From NCBI RefSeq assembly GCF_003044185.1, contig NZ_PYYB01000001.1:868001-932000 (forward strand): a stretch of 64,000 bases of DNA. Reading direction: 5' to 3'. The position numbers and the translations under genes were made by a program. A model generated the notes under the pieces. It did not search any database. It was not told where the DNA came from and saw only the letters and a list, made by a program, of their open reading frames with translations. This stretch comes from Paraconexibacter algicola (GTDB taxonomy: Bacteria; Actinomycetota; Thermoleophilia; Solirubrobacterales; Solirubrobacteraceae). This document shows positions 5,016 to 15,260 of the stretch, one piece after another (position 1 is the first letter of the stretch; every line of letters starts with the position of its first letter).

Positions 5016-6950
5016 CTACTGCGCCCCGACGAGGTCGATGCTGGCACGCCGAGACGTCGGTTCCGAGGAGCCCGCGGAGATCGCGATGGTTCCGCTCTGC
5101 GCGCGCGCATCCATCCGAACAGCGCCGCTTCGGGCGTGTTCGCGGGCGAGCGGCAGGAGCAGGTCGCGCTCGACGGTTGCCTCGAGGTGGCGTGCGCCGA
5201 GTTCCTCGCTGTGTCCTCGGCGCGCGAGCTCGTCGATCACCGAATCGCTGACGCGGACGTCGAGCCGTGGGTGGTGAGCTTGCCAGCGGGGGAGCAACAC
5301 GTCGCGTACGATCCGGCGACTGTCCTGCAGGCCGAGGTCGCGGAAGGCGCAGGTGGCGTCCATCCGGCCCAGCAACTCAGGAGCGAAGGCGCTCTGGAGC
5401 GCGCGGGCCCGCCCGTCGGCCGACTGAGTCCCTGATGACGTGGCCGCGAAGCCGAGGGAACGGCTTGTCGATCGAGCGCGTACGTTGGTGGTGAGGACGA
5501 TGACGGACTGGGTGAAGCTGATTGGCTCTCCGGTGCTGTCGGTTAGATGGCCCTCATCGAGGACCTGTAGCAGCAGCCGGTGGATCGCGGGGTGAGCTTT
5601 CTCGATCTCGTCGAAGAGCACCACGGCTTTGGGTTGGCGGCGTACGGCGGCCAGGAAGGGGCTGGGCTGTCCGTGTCCGACGATGCCGGGTGGTGGGGAG
5701 AGGATCTTCCAGACGTCGCGCTCGGTGCTGTACTCGCTCATGTCCAGCCGCACGAGCGCGCCGGGTCCGCCGCCGAGTTCGTCGGCCAGCGCGCGGGCCA
5801 GCTCGGTCTTCCCGACCCCGGTGGGGCCGGACAGGAGGAAGGCGCCTACCGGGCGGTTGGGTCTTAGGCGGAATCCCATTGCGCCGATCGTCAGACGGTC
5901 CACGACCTCGTCGATGACGTGACCCTGGCCGATGACGCGCGCCTGCAGGCGGCCGGCCATGCCCTCGAGGCGGCGGTGGCGTTCGGCGGCCGGGACGGGC
6001 TCCGGGCCGATTGCGGCAAGCTGCGCGAAGGTCTGGCGGACGAGCGCGACCCGGCGTGGGATCGACTCGGCGCGCCTGTCGGCTCGGACTGCGGCGAGGT
6101 CGGCGGCCTCGACGGCGAGGTCGGGCATGTCGGTGAGCCGGTCGTGGGTGGTGGCCAGGGCGATGAGCTCGTCGATAATGCGCGGGTTGGCGAACCGGGT
6201 GCGAGGTCCGAGCGCCTTGCTGATGTGGACGCGGACGAGGTCGTGGAGATGTTCGCGTGCGACGGGTCGCACCGCGACGCACCCCAGCCGTGCGGTAAGG
6301 CGCGGGTCGTGGTCCAGGCGCTCCACGGGGACGTCCTGAACGAGCACGGCCCGAAACCCGGGTTCCGCACAACGGGTGTTGAGTTCCTCGACGAGCGGAT
6401 GGTCTCGGCCGTCTTTCCATTTGAGGCCGTGGACGACCAACGTGGACGCTGTGGCGATCGCCGCGTCGACGAGATGCGAGGCCTCCACGCGGCCCCGCTT
6501 CGTTTCGAAGCGCCCCAGGACCCGGTCGGGCCGCACGAGCAGGAGCGGTCGTTGTCCCGTTTCTCCGTCCACCTGGCCGGCGGCGATTCGTGCGGCGGCT
6601 CCGTGGATGACGGCCAGGCGTCCCGATCCGACGGGCCCGGCGATCAGGACGAGTTGCTGGGAGCGCAGCTGTAGGTGCTCGACCAGCCGGTCGATCTCTT
6701 GGTCGCGGCCGACGATCGACGAGAACTCGCCTGATCGCGCTTGCGCGATCAGGTCGATCGTCGCGTGCTGCAGGATCTTCTCGAACGTGGGAGCAAGCTT
6801 GCGACGCCGGGCCGACGGGGCCTCCCGGGCGCCTTCAGCAGAAGGGCGCTGATCGGCCGACCCAGCAGCGTCCTGAGCGCTCGCGCCGGCGGACGCGGGT
6901 ATGCGGTGCTTGAGACGAGGCTGCACGGGTCCTTTCGGGTGGATGTCCAT
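5016..6950 (-). CDS. ClpA/ClpB-type AAA+ ATPase with degenerate first ATPase module
   Basis: 644 residues from the ATG at 6950 (longer in-frame starts lack protein-like sequence). After a 60-residue basic leader comes a ClpA-like first module opening with FSSIVGRDQEIDRL. Its Walker A reads GPVGSGRLA (about 103-112), with Lys replaced by Arg and Thr lost, and its Walker B position reads TLVVHGL instead of an IDE motif, so it should not hydrolyse ATP. The second module is intact: GPTGVGKTELARAL (about 374-387) and VVLFDEIEKAHP (about 443). A short C-terminal small domain follows. There is no N-terminal Clp repeat and no ClpP-loop that I can point to. A protein-remodelling role is likely; substrate unknown. 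It is transcribed away from the HAD gene at 7059 across a 108-base gap. Confidence 0.8.
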   Translation of the reverse strand: MDIHPKGPVQPRLKHRIPASAGASAQDAAGSADQRPSAEGAREAPSARRRKLAPTFEKILQHATIDLIAQARSGEFSSIVGRDQEIDRLVEHLQLRSQQLVLIAGPVGSGRLAVIHGAAARIAAGQVDGETGQRPLLLVRPDRVLGRFETKRGRVEASHLVDAAIATASTLVVHGLKWKDGRDHPLVEELNTRCAEPGFRAVLVQDVPVERLDHDPRLTARLGCVAVRPVAREHLHDLVRVHISKALGPRTRFANPRIIDELIALATTHDRLTDMPDLAVEAADLAAVRADRRAESIPRRVALVRQTFAQLAAIGPEPVPAAERHRRLEGMAGRLQARVIGQGHVIDEVVDRLTIGAMGFRLRPNRPVGAFLLSGPTGVGKTELARALADELGGGPGALVRLDMSEYSTERDVWKILSPPPGIVGHGQPSPFLAAVRRQPKAVVLFDEIEKAHPAIHRLLLQVLDEGHLTDSTGEPISFTQSVIVLTTNVRARSTSRSLGFAATSSGTQSADGRARALQSAFAPELLGRMDATCAFRDLGLQDSRRIVRDVLLPRWQAHHPRLDVRVSDSVIDELARRGHSEELGARHLEATVERDLLLPLAREHARSGAVRMDARAQSGTIAISAGSSEPTSRRASIDLVGAQ

Positions 6951-7058
6951 GCCCCTCTGCGCCGCAGCGGCTCGTCGTGTGACAGCTGCGGTCCGTGCTG
7001 CAGGAGGAGGACCCGTCGGGTTGTCACATCGGTCCGCGCTGCGGAGACTGGTTGCGAC

Positions 7059-7838
7059 ATGGCCGACGTAGTGCTCTTCGATCTCGACGCGACGCTCATC
7101 CCCGAGACGACCGCCACCCGCGCCGCGTTCCTGGCCGCCGCCACGCTGGCAGCAGAACATCACGGAGTTGACGCGACCACGCTGGCCGCCGCTGCGTACC
7201 GCCACGCACGCCGTGGCTGGGCGAGCTCGCCGGCTGCGTCGTTCTGTTCGCGGATCGGGATTAGCGCCTCGGAGGGCCTGTGGTGTGCGTTTGGGGGCGA
7301 TCGGCCCGAGCTCGTCGTGCTGCGCGACTGGGCGCCCAGTTACCAGCGGGCGCCCTGGCGCGACGCCCTGTCCGACGAGGGGGTCCGCGACGAGGACCTC
7401 GTGGACGCGCTCGCCGGTCGCTTCGCTGCCGCGCGGCGTTCAGGCGTCGTGCCGTTTCCCGATGTCCTCCCTACGTTTGACCGCCTCGATGGCTCGTTCG
7501 GGTTGGGAGTCGTGACGAACGGTGCGTCGTGTCTGCAGCGGGAGAAGCTCGAGCTCGCCGCACTCACCAACCGGTTCGCGTTCGTGATCGCCTCCGGTGA
7601 CCTGGGCGTCGGCAAACCGGACCCGGCGATCTTCCGTGCGGCAGCAGACCGCGCCGCGACGGTCCCTGGCCGCATCGTCATGGTCGGTGATGACCTCGAC
7701 CGCGACGTGAACGCTGCCCGGGCCGCTGGCCTGCGGGCAGTGCATCTCGACCGCGCCGGTACCCTCGGTCCGCCGGCGATCTCGACGCTCGCCGAGCTCC
7801 CGACGGCCCTCGGCGCGATCGCGGAGGGCTGCAGGTGA
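7059..7838 (+). CDS. HAD-superfamily hydrolase
   Basis: 259 residues. Motif I is FDLDATL (residues 7-13) with the nucleophile and acid Asp. A helical cap follows; then VVTNGAS (motif II), GKPDPAIF (motif III Lys) and GDDLDRDV (motif IV). This is a complete catalytic set for a small-molecule phosphatase or dehalogenase-like enzyme; the substrate cannot be told. The ATG at 7059 was chosen because the sequence upstream in the same frame is low-complexity and unlike protein. The stop codon shares one base with the start of the phosphoesterase gene, so the two are translationally coupled. Confidence 0.85.
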   Translation: MADVVLFDLDATLIPETTATRAAFLAAATLAAEHHGVDATTLAAAAYRHARRGWASSPAASFCSRIGISASEGLWCAFGGDRPELVVLRDWAPSYQRAPWRDALSDEGVRDEDLVDALAGRFAAARRSGVVPFPDVLPTFDRLDGSFGLGVVTNGASCLQREKLELAALTNRFAFVIASGDLGVGKPDPAIFRAAADRAATVPGRIVMVGDDLDRDVNAARAAGLRAVHLDRAGTLGPPAISTLAELPTALGAIAEGCR

Positions 7839-8622: not shown

Positions 8623-10539
8623 ATGACCATCGTCGGTGTGCGCTCCTGGTTCATCGACCAGGACGGCGGGCTGCGCCCGCTGCACGCCGAGCTTGGAACC
8701 TGGGACGCGCCGGTCGCGACCGCTGTGTGCGACAGCAGTCCGGCAACCGGTCACGTCGCACCGGCGAGCGACTGCTCGTGCGGCCTCTACGGTTCCTATG
8801 AGCTTCCGGCCCGGACCCGTCCTGGGTGTGTCACCGGTGCGATCCAGGCGTGGGGCAAGGTCGAGCTGCACTTCTCGGGATTCCGCGCCCAGCACGCCCG
8901 GCCCGTCGCGCTCGTCCTTCCGCCCCGCGCCTCCACGAACCTGCGCCCGCGGTTGGAGCGGGCCGCCCAGCGTTACGGCGCACAGCTCGTGCCATCCCAG
9001 GACGAACTGCTGTCCGTCGCCGCCGAGTGGGGCTCTCCGGTCGCACTCCAGGACCGCCCGTTCAGCCTCCTCTCGCGCGTCGTCGCGGCGGACGACAGCC
9101 CGGATCCCGCGATGCTCGAGTCACCGGCCGGAGCACTGCAGTGGCTGTACCAGCGGACGCTCGAGCAGGCCGGCGGCCAGATGCCCGGCTTGGACCTCGA
9201 GCGGATGTCCGACGCGGACGTGGCAGATGAGCTGCTTGCCGTTCGAACGCTCTGCGAGCGGGGCATCGAGGCGACGTCGGTCACAGACGTGCAACTGGGG
9301 GCAGCGGACCGGGGCGCGGTCCTGCGTCACGTCGGGACCCTGGACGCCGCGCGGTTCCGAGGCTTCTGGGTCGCGTTGGCGCAGCGAAGTGACGGTCCGG
9401 TGGCGCGGGAGTTTATGGACGCGGGGTGTCGCGAGACGCCGGTCGTCGCACTCGCGCTCGGACTGCCCCTCTCCCCACCAAACCCGGACAGCTGGACGGC
9501 CCGCACTGCCCAGCAGCGGCTACTCACCGAACTCCAGGACCCGGAGGCGCTGCGCAGGTGTTGTGGTGCGTCCGCGGCGCAGTCGACCCGGAGATCGTGG
9601 AACGCGCGTTCCGAGGAGGCCCCGCGTTCTGGGGCGTCGAGCCGCTGCAGCGGGCCGGCAAGGCAACCGTGGCACTCGCGCAGCGTCTCGCTGATGACGA
9701 GGCACTAGCCCCGCAAGCCCGCGCCCAGGCAGCAGTCGCCGCCCGCGACACCGACCGCGGCCTGCGACTGGCGACCGAGCACCCGCGGCTGCTGCTCGAG
9801 CAGCAGCAACTGCGAAAGCTCCTTGGCCCGCTGCACTGCGCACGCATCGCAAACGAGTACGTGAAGTGCAAAAACCGCGATCCGGAGCTCGGCCTGCGAT
9901 TGGCGATCGCCCTCTTTCCCAGACCGCAGGCCGTCGGGCACGTCGCCCAACTGCTGCGCGACGCCAAGGACCGACCGGGTGAGCGGCCGCTCGCCGGGTT
10001 CACGCGGGCCGTCGTCCGCCCTCTGCGGGGCATCGTCGACGGCCAGATCGTCGCCGAACTGCTCGACGACGAACGCCTCGGCACCTTGGAGCTCCACGCG
10101 CTGCTCGAGTTGTCCTCGCGGCCGCACCCCGAGACGGCCGAGCGGCTCTGGGACAGCGGCGAAAGCCTGGACCCCAACGTGGCGATCAAGCTCCTGAACG
10201 ACGCCCACCCGCACGGCGGCCGCGTCACCCGCAAACACCTGCGCGCACACGCGACGGACTTCGACGATTGGGCCACGCCGAGAACAGCGGCAGCGATCGC
10301 CTACCTGCCCTCCACCGACCGCATCACGCTGGACTGCGCTCGCGCACTGGCCGACGCCGTCGACGCACCCACCTACCTCCGCCTGCAGGCCCTACGGATG
10401 CTCGAGCGCGGCGCCTACCGATAGCCCACGAGCTGCTCGCGGCTGACGACCTCGATCGCGACCTGCGGGCCGCGTGCACGGACGTGCTGGCCGGACGTCA
10501 CCCCAGCGACCTGACGGCCCGAATGCTCCTCACCCGCGC
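8623..10539 (+). pseudogene. Frameshifted WG-motif / helical-repeat protein
   Basis: The ATG at 8623 opens frame 1. Its first part holds a CSCGLYGSY block and a GAIQAWGKVELHFSGFRAQHARP block, which resemble the C-x-C-G-x-Y and WG-x-V-x-x-H segments of an uncharacterised actinobacterial family. Frame 1 is protein-like to about 9555. The signal then moves to frame 3 (QVLWCVRGAVDPEIVERAF) and runs through Leu- and Ala-rich helices, perhaps HEAT-like, to TAG at 10422-10424. Just before that stop it shifts again to frame 2 (IAHELLAADDLDRDL ... DLTARMLLTRAP) until about 10,540. Two frameshifts argue for decay. The first shift, in CTGCGCAGGTGTT, is not a typical slippery heptamer, so programmed frameshifting is unlikely. 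Confidence 0.6.
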
Positions 10540-11977: not shown

Positions 11978-12649
11978 ATGGAGCACCCGCCCCTGCGCGC
12001 GACCCCGCGCAGACCGCACCCCATCACGACCACCGACGACGCCCGTCGGCTGGCCACCATCGCCGTCCTGCAGTCCATCGACCGAGCCGTCGCCCGCGTC
12101 GCGCGCCAGCACGGCGACGCCATCGCCGAGGACGTCCACCTCCGCCTGCTGCGGCGCATCGACACCGGGCCAACCCTGGCCGACACGTCGTGCTGGCTCG
12201 ACGAGACCGGAGAGATCCGAGAGCTCGCACTGCGCGCCTGGATGCGCAAAGCCGCCGACGGCGAGACCAGCACCGCCTACCGCCACCGCACCGGCCTCGA
12301 CGCACTGCTCGACCTCCCCGACACCCGCGAGCCAGCGGCCCATGAGATCCCGCCTGCGGTCAACGCCGACGACGACCCGGCGGTGCTCTTGGTCAGCCTG
12401 CGCCGTGCCACCCGGCAGGTCGCGATGACGCCACGGACCCGCGAGATCGCGCTGCAGGTCCTCACCGACCGACTGGCCGGCGAGACCTTCGCGACCGCCG
12501 CCCAGCGCGCAGGGGTGCCGACCAACACCGCCACCCAGTACAGCCGCCGGCTGCTGCGAGCGGTCGCGCCGAGCCTGCAGCGCCGCGTGCGACGCGTCGT
12601 GCGCGAGCAGAAGTCGACGCTGTCACAACAGCGGCCCGCCACGCGCTGA
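11978..12649 (+). CDS. Sigma-factor-like / helix-turn-helix protein
   Basis: 223 residues. The C-terminal part (about 150-205) reads TPRTREIALQVLTDRLAGE then FATAAQRAGVPTNTATQYSRRLLRA, a helix-turn-helix like sigma region 4 that would sit in the -35 groove. The N-terminal helices (ATIAVLQSIDRAVARVARQHGD) could be a weak region-2 equivalent. The middle is acidic and unlike a standard sigma factor. AAAGGA lies 9 bases before the ATG. The gap to the membrane gene at 12659 is only 9 bases, so the two form an operon, possibly extending to the CARF nuclease. A regulator of this small cluster is plausible but inferred. Confidence 0.55.
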   Translation: MEHPPLRATPRRPHPITTTDDARRLATIAVLQSIDRAVARVARQHGDAIAEDVHLRLLRRIDTGPTLADTSCWLDETGEIRELALRAWMRKAADGETSTAYRHRTGLDALLDLPDTREPAAHEIPPAVNADDDPAVLLVSLRRATRQVAMTPRTREIALQVLTDRLAGETFATAAQRAGVPTNTATQYSRRLLRAVAPSLQRRVRRVVREQKSTLSQQRPATR

Positions 12650-12658
12650 ACAGCAGCC

Positions 12659-13555
12659 ATGAGCACTCACGACACCACCTCCACCCCACCCACCCCGACC
12701 CCTGCCGACCAGGCCGTCCGAACCACGCCGCCAGCCGCGCTCAGCGCCGTCGCCGAGCTACCCCGCCCCGTGCTGCTCACCGGGACGGGCGGCGTTCTGC
12801 TCCTGCTCGCCATGTTCCTCCCCTGGTTCCGCCTCGACGTCCCCGCGGTGGGCGGATCGCGCTCGGGGCTGCAGTCCTCGGCCCTGACGGTCGTGCCCGT
12901 CCTGCTGGCCGCCGGGGGAGCGCTGAGCGTCGCCTGGGCCGCACGCACAACGCGCACCGCACACGTCCTCGGGCGCCCAGGGTGGCACGTGACCAGCGCC
13001 GCCGGACTCCTCGCACTGATCGGCACCGTCGCCGCCGTCCTCTCCCCGCCGAGCATCCTTCCCGGGCCGGACGCGGTCAGCGGCTTCGCCTCCCTGGTCG
13101 GTCTGGACCCCAAGCCTCAGCTCGGCGTCTACCTCGCCCTCCTGGCCGCCACCGTGATCACCGCAGGCGGCCTGACCCTCCCCGCCGGCCCGCTACACGA
13201 AGGCACCAACGGCCCTGCCGGAAACATGTACCTCGCCATCCGCCGCGCCCGGGCCGACGAGAACACCGGGCTCCTAGCGTCCGCCGCGATGGGCCTCGCG
13301 GCGCCCTCCCTGGTGATCCTCGGACTCGTCCGGGACTCCGCGGCGGTGCTCACGGTCGCCTTGGTCACGGCGATCGCCGCCGTGCTCGCCTCCCGCGTCG
13401 CGCGCCGCGGCCTGCCGGCAGACGAGAAAGACCTGCGAACGCTGTCACGCGTCGGACAGGCCGGAGGCTGGACCGTCCTCGGCGCGACGCTCACGGTGCT
13501 GATCCTCACCGCGGCCGTGCTCGGGCAGGCAGCCAATGACCTTGGCGCCCTCTAA
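12659..13555 (+). CDS. Hypothetical multi-pass membrane protein
   Basis: 298 residues. A Thr/Pro-rich N-terminal tail of about 35 residues precedes hydrophobic segments at about 38-58 (VLLTGTGGVLLLLAMFLPWF), 75-92, 108-126, 155-172, 205-222, 228-246 and 275-295. The 'AMFLPWF' motif after the first segment is common in short actinobacterial membrane proteins of unknown role. No transporter signature is seen. It follows the sigma-like gene by 9 bases and precedes a perfect hairpin and the CARF nuclease gene. Confidence 0.7.
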   Translation: MSTHDTTSTPPTPTPADQAVRTTPPAALSAVAELPRPVLLTGTGGVLLLLAMFLPWFRLDVPAVGGSRSGLQSSALTVVPVLLAAGGALSVAWAARTTRTAHVLGRPGWHVTSAAGLLALIGTVAAVLSPPSILPGPDAVSGFASLVGLDPKPQLGVYLALLAATVITAGGLTLPAGPLHEGTNGPAGNMYLAIRRARADENTGLLASAAMGLAAPSLVILGLVRDSAAVLTVALVTAIAAVLASRVARRGLPADEKDLRTLSRVGQAGGWTVLGATLTVLILTAAVLGQAANDLGAL

Positions 13556-13575
13556 TCGTACCCGTGAGAGAGACT

Positions 13576-13611
13576 GTGCGGGAGTCCGCTGCCGAAAGCG
13601 GACTCCCGCAC
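13576..13611. repeat. Perfect 15-bp inverted repeat before the CARF nuclease
   Basis: GTGCGGGAGTCCGCT (13576-13590) and AGCGGACTCCCGCAC (13597-13611) are exact complements, loop GCCGAA. The right arm ends directly at the ATG of the next gene. There is no T-run. It could be a terminator for the 12659 gene, an attenuator, or a structure that hides the start of the nuclease gene. Confidence 0.85.
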
Positions 13612-14688
13612 ATGGTGAGTCCAGCACCACTCCACACCGCCGCGTTCGTCGTCGACGACCACCCCCTCGACACGTACCTCGCATGCGCCGCCCTGCGCCC
13701 CACGCAGGCGATCCTCATCCATCCTCCCGACCGCGCCGACGAGGCACAGCGACTACGCGACGTCCTCACGCGCCGCTTCGCCACGACGGCCCACTGCGAG
13801 GAGATCGGCGACAACACACACTTCCCGCAGGCCCAAGCCCTCCACGCCCGGCTGCCGGCTAACACGCACGTCCACCACACCGGCGGCGACGGCTCCCTCG
13901 CCTCAAGCCTGCGAGCCGCGCACTTCATCGCCGACCGGGCACCCCAGGACGCCTCCTGCCTGGATGAGGACCGCAGGCTCCTACGCCGAGACGACGGCAC
14001 CGACACCCCGCTCGCAGACCTCGTCCCCGCCAACGCGGTCACCCTCGAGGTCCTCATGGACCTTCAAGGCTTCCACCGCGCGCGGCCCGACACCGAGACG
14101 CAGGCCGCATCGCACGCGCTCCTGGACGCCGCCGGCCCACCACCGTGGGAGCAGGTCGCCCGGCTCGTCGACGACGGCACAACAGCAGTCGCAGTGCTAC
14201 GCCGTCACATCGAAGAAGCCCAGCCCCGCCCCAACCGCTTCACGCGCAGCCATCACCTCGAGGTCTTCCTCAGAGGACTCTTTCTCGAGTACCTGCTCTC
14301 ACGACTCATCACCCAAGCCGCACCAGGCCACGAGGTGCACACCGGCGTCCGCCTGACGCGCGACGCCATGAGCCTCGAACTCGACGTCGTCGCCATCGGC
14401 CACTACCGCCCGTACGTCTTCTCCTGCACCACCGGCCGCACCGGCAAGAACGCGAAGGCCAAAGCCTTCGAAGTCCTCGCCCGCGCCCGCCAGATCGGCG
14501 GACAGACCGCCCGCCCCGGACTCCTCGCCGCACTCGACACCCAATCAACCCCCAACGCACGACAGGTCGCCCACCTCTCCACCGTCGACCGGGACGACAC
14601 CGCCGAGCAGGTCCTCGTCGTCGAACTCACCTCCCTCGCAGCCGCCGCCGTCAACGGCAACGTCGCGGATCTTCTGCTCGCCCACTAA
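13612..14688 (+). CDS. CARF-domain nuclease of the DUF1887 (Card1/Can2-like) family
   Basis: 358 residues. The N-terminal half is a Rossmann-like CARF domain: hydrophobic strand AAFVVDD, QAILIHPP, and the loop HTGGDGSLASSL (about 89-100), equivalent to the 'TGGTK' ligand loop of DUF1887 proteins. The C-terminal half has the restriction-endonuclease-like core: GLFLEYLL (Glu about 225), LELDVVAI (Glu 256, Asp 258), then FSCTTGRTGK (270-279) and a KAFEVLARARQIGG helix. In Card1/Can2 cyclic oligoadenylate binding by CARF switches on cutting of nucleic acid. Here the usual 'CKT' Lys is Thr 273, with Lys 279 nearby as a possible substitute. ATG 13612 is preferred over GTG 13564, which would run translation through a perfect hairpin. 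No Cas10 or CRISPR array is in the window. Confidence 0.78.
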   Translation: MVSPAPLHTAAFVVDDHPLDTYLACAALRPTQAILIHPPDRADEAQRLRDVLTRRFATTAHCEEIGDNTHFPQAQALHARLPANTHVHHTGGDGSLASSLRAAHFIADRAPQDASCLDEDRRLLRRDDGTDTPLADLVPANAVTLEVLMDLQGFHRARPDTETQAASHALLDAAGPPPWEQVARLVDDGTTAVAVLRRHIEEAQPRPNRFTRSHHLEVFLRGLFLEYLLSRLITQAAPGHEVHTGVRLTRDAMSLELDVVAIGHYRPYVFSCTTGRTGKNAKAKAFEVLARARQIGGQTARPGLLAALDTQSTPNARQVAHLSTVDRDDTAEQVLVVELTSLAAAAVNGNVADLLLAH

Positions 14689-15186
14689 CCCTCAGCAGCA
14701 GACCACGGACCCGGCTGGCACACAGCCACCGCGCCGCGCGCAAGCATCAATGACGCCAGAAGACTCCCCCGAACCCCGGATCCGCGGGCCTCGGGCTCCA
14801 CGCCGCTACCAGCATGAGGTTGACGCCGCTCGCGCAACTCTCGGAGCGCCTCGTTCTCAGCCCCGCGAGGTACGCGCTTCGTGCGACCACCCTTCCCTCC
14901 AGGTGCGGCCCTCACGACGTCCACCTGGTCCCACCGGATCGGGACCGACGGGCGGGCGACAGCTGGCGAGAGCAGGATGTCCAGCAGCTCGCCGACCGCA
15001 TCCACTAGCGGGGCGTCCGCATACGGAACGACGTCGACGATCCACCGGCGGTGTTCCAGGTTTGGGTCCACGTTTCCCCGCGTCCGGTGCCATCCGCTGC
15101 TGTCTCCTGCGGACTGCGCGCGGAACCGAACGCAAGAGAGGCCCGCAAATTGCCGCTCCTGCGGCTTGCTGCGGACCTCTGCTGAG
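14689..15186. other. Gap between CARF nuclease and tRNA-Asp
   Basis: No clear gene in 498 bases. On the minus strand about 14,800-15,070 reads a protein-like stretch (RRWIVDVVPYADAPLVDAV, ELLDILLSPAVARPSV) without an obvious start, probably a remnant at the island edge. A short hairpin at 15152-15165 follows the tRNA 3' end. Confidence 0.4.
15152..15165 (-). terminator. Hairpin downstream of tRNA-Asp
   Basis: GCCGC and GCGGC arms with a 4-base loop, read on the minus strand 21 bases after the tRNA 3' end and followed by AATTT. A short, plausible tRNA terminator. Confidence 0.4.

Positions 15187-15260
<74 letters not shown>

Follow-up and report, generated by a model that had tools for sequence, protein, structure and literature searches.

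The gene at positions 13612 to 14688 on the forward strand of the window (the whole 64,000-nt stretch of the Paraconexibacter algicola contig analysed here) encodes P0001, a 358-aa CARF and PD-(D/E)xK protein that is a newly found orphan member of the catalogued CARF nuclease family PDLC01968, with a Can2-like architecture. In type III CRISPR, CARF domains are regarded as the sensors of cOA. The best explanation, to which we assign a probability of about 0.6, is that P0001 is an orphan nuclease of the Can2/Card1 type within PDLC01968, carried on a tRNA-Asp island, whose trigger is not cA4 via the known contacts.

Coding frame, family assignment and predicted fold

The reading frame starts with the ATG at 13612 and its stop codon ends at 14688, and its GC content by codon position (0.76/0.48/0.84) is coding-like. 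Starting instead from the in-frame GTG at 13564 would make the protein 16 residues longer; the shorter ATG start is the one that fits the alignment, because the relatives align with it. A perfect inverted repeat (16-bp stem, 6-nt loop; 13575 to 13612, forward strand) lies between the upstream gene and the P0001 gene; its last base is the A of the P0001 start codon, and its RNA fold z is -5.8. This hairpin may be a terminator of the upstream gene or an element of translational control.

The PADLOC profile CARF_PDDEXK (PDLC01968) matched P0001 over its full length (E = 1.9e-70, 235.8 bits, profile positions 44-356 of 361), and the runner-up, Csx1 PDLC01512, scored 85.2 bits, with the Csx1/CARF4 nuclease profiles far behind. 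P0001 was not measurably different from PDLC01968, with which it also has its altered pocket preferences in common. No match was found in NCBIfam or PHROGs. Profile searches had been proposed as the check on a sequence-only reading of this gene as a CARF-DUF1887 nuclease, and they divided: PADLOC gave the match, and the Pfam model Card1_endonuc (PF09002) reached only E = 0.015 and 15.3 bits, under its 26.4-bit cut-off, and stayed under it in the genome-wide search as well. The Pfam result, which taken alone would count against the assignment, was overruled because of the PADLOC and structure results.

Searches against solved structures pointed to Can2. A phmmer search with the single sequence matched two Can2 proteins, one from Thermoanaerobacter brockii (8q44, E = 1.9e-6) and one from Sulfobacillus (E = 3.5e-4), and a profile made with ten relatives matched 8q3y (E = 1.2e-41) and 7bdv (E = 1.3e-20), followed by Card1, VC1899 and Can1. 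An AlphaFold2 model built with 25 sequences (pLDDT 86.3, pTM 0.85) found cA4-bound Can2 structures as its top matches, with 8q3z at Z 27.1 and an rmsd of 3.6 over 338 residues; VC1899 followed at Z 25.2. Card1 (6wxw, 6xl1) shares the domain order and the fold (Z about 20-22), but it is only 10-11% identical, is activated by cA4 and carries the classical E-C-K motif in an alignment that extends to residue 310 of the chain. The CARF domains of Csm6, Cam1 and ring nucleases matched the model over residues about 2-130.

The family assignment is thus far beyond chance. The model and its structure matches span residues 5-358 and show a CARF fused to a PD-(D/E)xK domain, so that both of the parts expected by the sequence-only reading were present in the predicted fold. 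P0001 is accordingly modelled as one CARF domain (Rossmann-like, residues 1-159, 13612 to 14088) joined to a linker, a helical region and the PD-(D/E)xK domain (14089 to 14685), with the catalytic set kept. The motifs by which it had been recognized, TGG at 90-92, E226, E256-L-D258, S271-C-T-T-G and K279/K282/K284, were all located where they had been reported.

A retained nuclease core and an altered sensor pocket

The nuclease residues E226, E256-x-D258, S271-C-T-T (S271-T274), K282, K284 and the FEV..RARQIGG segment are retained in P0001 as in its relatives, and the E-x-D acidic pair and K282/K284 are also conserved with T. brockii Can2 (8q3y-8q44). The sequence-only reading had attached weight to Thr 273, which occupies the position of the classical catalytic Lys. 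This emphasis is not borne out, as S-C-T followed by a later K-x-K is the common pattern in the relatives, and T. brockii Can2 itself reads SLTT...CKLK; judged by the alignment, Thr at this position is no peculiarity of P0001. From the kept core residues the nuclease is expected to be active.

The real peculiarity, as far as can be read from the alignments, is the changed sensor pocket, which the sequence-only reading missed. The cA4 contacts in SthCan2 that are common to Can1 are Ser19, Thr42, Lys99 and Tyr118 (PMC7969007). In a profile alignment, made without a ligand-bound model, they correspond to Asp15, Pro38, Gly94 and Cys116 of P0001, so that all four are replaced; D93, next to G94, is changed as well. 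T. brockii Can2, which was solved with cA4, has the same two-domain fold and the ELD...S-x-T-T...K-x-K...FEV..R.RQIGG core, but its CARF domain keeps VGTNPLPNY, TGGTK and SYLD, none of which is intact in P0001. All 24 relatives retain the TGGTK Lys and the Tyr; they were gathered with patterns allowing TGG[DT][GK], so that Lys at 94 was not forced and more divergent pockets could be missed. By leave-one-out counting, P0001 has lost 10 of 22 conserved CARF positions and 2 of 16 conserved nuclease positions (one-sided p = 0.033), and no other sequence has lost more than five CARF positions.

In order to distinguish a family trait from private decay, residues of P0001 were changed singly and each variant was scored against PDLC01968 (changes in bits). 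Most substitutions that restored Can2-like residues lowered the score: D15G (-3.4), D15S (-0.6), D16S (-1.8), H17N (-1.0), P38S (-1.7), H89Y (-3.8), D93T (-0.7), C116Y (-1.9) and C116V (-1.5), with P38T at +0.1. At position 94, Asp (+1.8) outscored Asn (+0.8), Lys (+0.7) and Ala (+0.3), and Arg and Ser each cost 0.5. These results, which come from profile scores and not from member sequences, suggest that the altered pocket is largely a trait of the PDLC01968 family, without a firm Lys at 94. Some members of the family may keep lysines at 94 and 273, because G94K and T273K (+2.5) both raise the score. With PDLC01968, the type III-D relatives tested reached no more than 46-67 bits, against 120-265 bits with other CARF nuclease profiles; therefore, PDLC01968 describes the branch of P0001 itself.

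Vibrio cholerae VC1899 (1xmx) is a precedent for an orphan of this kind: a DUF1887 protein without a type III system, with nuclease residues kept and with no activation by cA4 (PMC7969007). At the same four pocket positions it carries Asp9, Asp34, Arg96 and Val115 (PMC7969007), and so has Asp at the Ser19 position as P0001 does (Asp15). It differs in having a basic Arg96 as the counterpart of Lys99 and of the Gly94 of P0001, and the two proteins are 13% identical. According to an older survey, every CARF family includes members without a CRISPR link, and families in which strand 4 is not followed by the basic residue, RtcR among them, may recognise ligands of a different kind (PMC4012209).

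Orphan status and the tRNA-Asp island

The P. algicola assembly (4,736,481 bases in 6 contigs, 95.6% complete) was searched for possible partners, which extended the orphan status claimed earlier for 64 kb to the assembly as a whole. No match in the 4.74 Mb was obtained with the Cas10 palm model, with RAMP models, with a Cas1 model, with the SMODS cyclase (CBASS CD-NTase) model, which leaves P0001 without a CBASS partner there, or with a Cas10d alignment made for this analysis, a model without a positive control. The Cas10 palm model also matches an E. coli control; its specificity is therefore imperfect, and its silence in the assembly is all the stronger. As far as the assembly can be searched, P0001 is not a type III effector in its own genome, and the earlier suggestion that it might respond to a distant CRISPR system there found no support.

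The relatives present a different picture. Scores above the cut-off of the Cas10 palm model were obtained for 22 of the 25 genomes with relatives, and at 12 loci the next gene downstream encodes a 525-578-aa Cas10-like protein with a GGDD palm motif; the one tested matched PADLOC Cas10d with E = 3.5e-129. The GGDD is invariant in this compact Cas10d-like protein across these loci (L018, L020, L022-L024, L027-L029, L031, L033, L034 and L036). The two loci that were scanned, L020 and L023, both have type III-D Cas7/Cas5 (RAMP) genes nearby. With a Cas10d neighbour and type III-D genes, the relatives have the appearance of usual accessory nucleases of type III-D systems. A two-gene system outside CRISPR, made up of a CARF nuclease and a mini-cyclase, was considered for them and rejected on the same observations. 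The type III-D-linked CARF nucleases (PDLC01512/PDLC01883; L018-L028) are 25-32% identical to P0001 over its length and have the same nuclease core; they differ in that they mostly adjoin Cas10d-like genes and have TGGTK pockets.

Of the genes in a 15.3-kb island, that of P0001 comes last and precedes a tRNA-Asp gene (GTC; 15186 to 15260, reverse strand). The last 45 nt of the tRNA (15187 to 15231), which form one end of the island, recur 15.3 kb away at contig positions 867893-867937 with 1 mismatch and a run of 29 exact bases, 107 bases before the window. A repeat of the 3' end of a tRNA is the classical border of a tRNA-integrated element, and the location of the gene at the edge of a mobile island, inferred earlier, was supported and refined to an element of about -107 to 15186. 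No integrase family was found among the main ORFs of the island, and in the comparison made to look for an empty site, two relatives from the genus with the flanking gene had no shared synteny there.

Upstream of P0001 and co-directional with it are genes for a hydrophobic, probably membrane protein of 298 aa without a family match (12659 to 13555, forward strand) and for a 223-aa protein (11978 to 12649, forward strand) with only a weak HTH-like match (HTH_Tnp_1, E = 0.14). The island also encodes a ClpA/B-like AAA+ protein (5016 to 7205, reverse strand) that matches a PHROG ATP-dependent protease (E = 3.3e-102) and, weakly, defence ATPases. Two further ORFs, 8623-9708 and 9426-10424, overlap in different frames, which suggests a single gene interrupted by a frameshift near 9550, unless the break is a sequencing error.

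Possible triggers and competing explanations

Because the pocket is without the cA4 contacts, cA4 acting through the known contacts is probably not the trigger of P0001, which would respond to another signal or to none; the replacement of all four contact positions supports the earlier suggestion that the protein may answer a signal different from the cOA of type III systems. By analogy with Can2, P0001 would dimerise, and a ligand bound across the CARF dimer would open the nuclease cleft. The enzyme would be a metal-dependent, sequence-nonspecific nuclease that nicks DNA, cleaves ssRNA, or both, and may act as a defence or stress effector. The changed residues suggest that the trigger could be another ligand (a small nucleotide, a nucleic-acid end or a protein) or that control has been lost; the assembly yielded no source of cOA. 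A family in which the nuclease is kept while the ligand contacts are replaced, outside CRISPR, provides a handle on the signals sensed by VC1899 and other orphan CARF proteins, and the pocket residues named here are candidates for probing it.

VC1899, with a similar pocket change, is nearly inactive in vitro (PMC7969007), which speaks against this explanation and in favour of a degenerate relic, that is, a type III accessory nuclease that was cut off from CRISPR and whose sensor is decaying and which has no function today, as VC1899 itself has been interpreted (PMC7969007). The lack of Cas10 in the assembly, the loss of 10 of the 22 conserved CARF positions and the island gene nearby that looks frameshifted (about 9430-9710) are consistent with such a relic. 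However, the 358-codon frame is intact with a coding-like GC3, the nuclease core is almost unchanged, and the altered pocket is largely favoured by the PADLOC model of the family, and we consider a relic rather unlikely.

It is improbable that P0001 is still a cOA effector, served by a type III system on an incoming plasmid or prophage or in an unassembled part of the genome, with a pocket that binds cOA in another way. CARF pockets do vary, all readable relatives keep TGGTK, mostly together with Cas10, and the genome is 95.6% complete; yet P0001 has other residues at all four cA4 contacts common to Can1 and Can2, with Asp and Gly at two of them, and no type III gene was found in the assembly. 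Constitutive activity or transcriptional control, with the CARF domain serving dimerisation only, hardly deserves credence. The strong hairpin over the start codon (13575 to 13612) and the co-directional HTH-like gene would favour it as possible controlling elements, but the hairpin may be just the terminator of the upstream gene.

Beyond P0001 as an orphan nuclease with a non-cA4 trigger, PDLC01968 as a whole could tentatively be seen, with doubts outweighing confidence, as a branch of the CARF nucleases that is independent of CRISPR, has a pocket rebuilt for a non-cOA ligand and is spread by islands as a stand-alone defence of a single gene. Close relatives of P0001 were absent from viral contigs and phages, and from plasmids at 1e-5; at E ≤ 1, the plasmid search gave weak matches to the nuclease domain only, on cyanobacterial plasmids. 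No orthologues at the level of PDLC01968 were found in 399 genomes of the class, 8 of the genus, 396 of the phylum and 66 of another class, and most of the weak matches in the 396 phylum genomes were other restriction-like proteins. One genome of the same class (locus L002, 1369 to 1884, reverse strand) contains a CARF-like ORF of 171 aa that lacks a nuclease domain and adjoins a DEAD/Cas3-like helicase fragment and HEPN/MNT-type genes.
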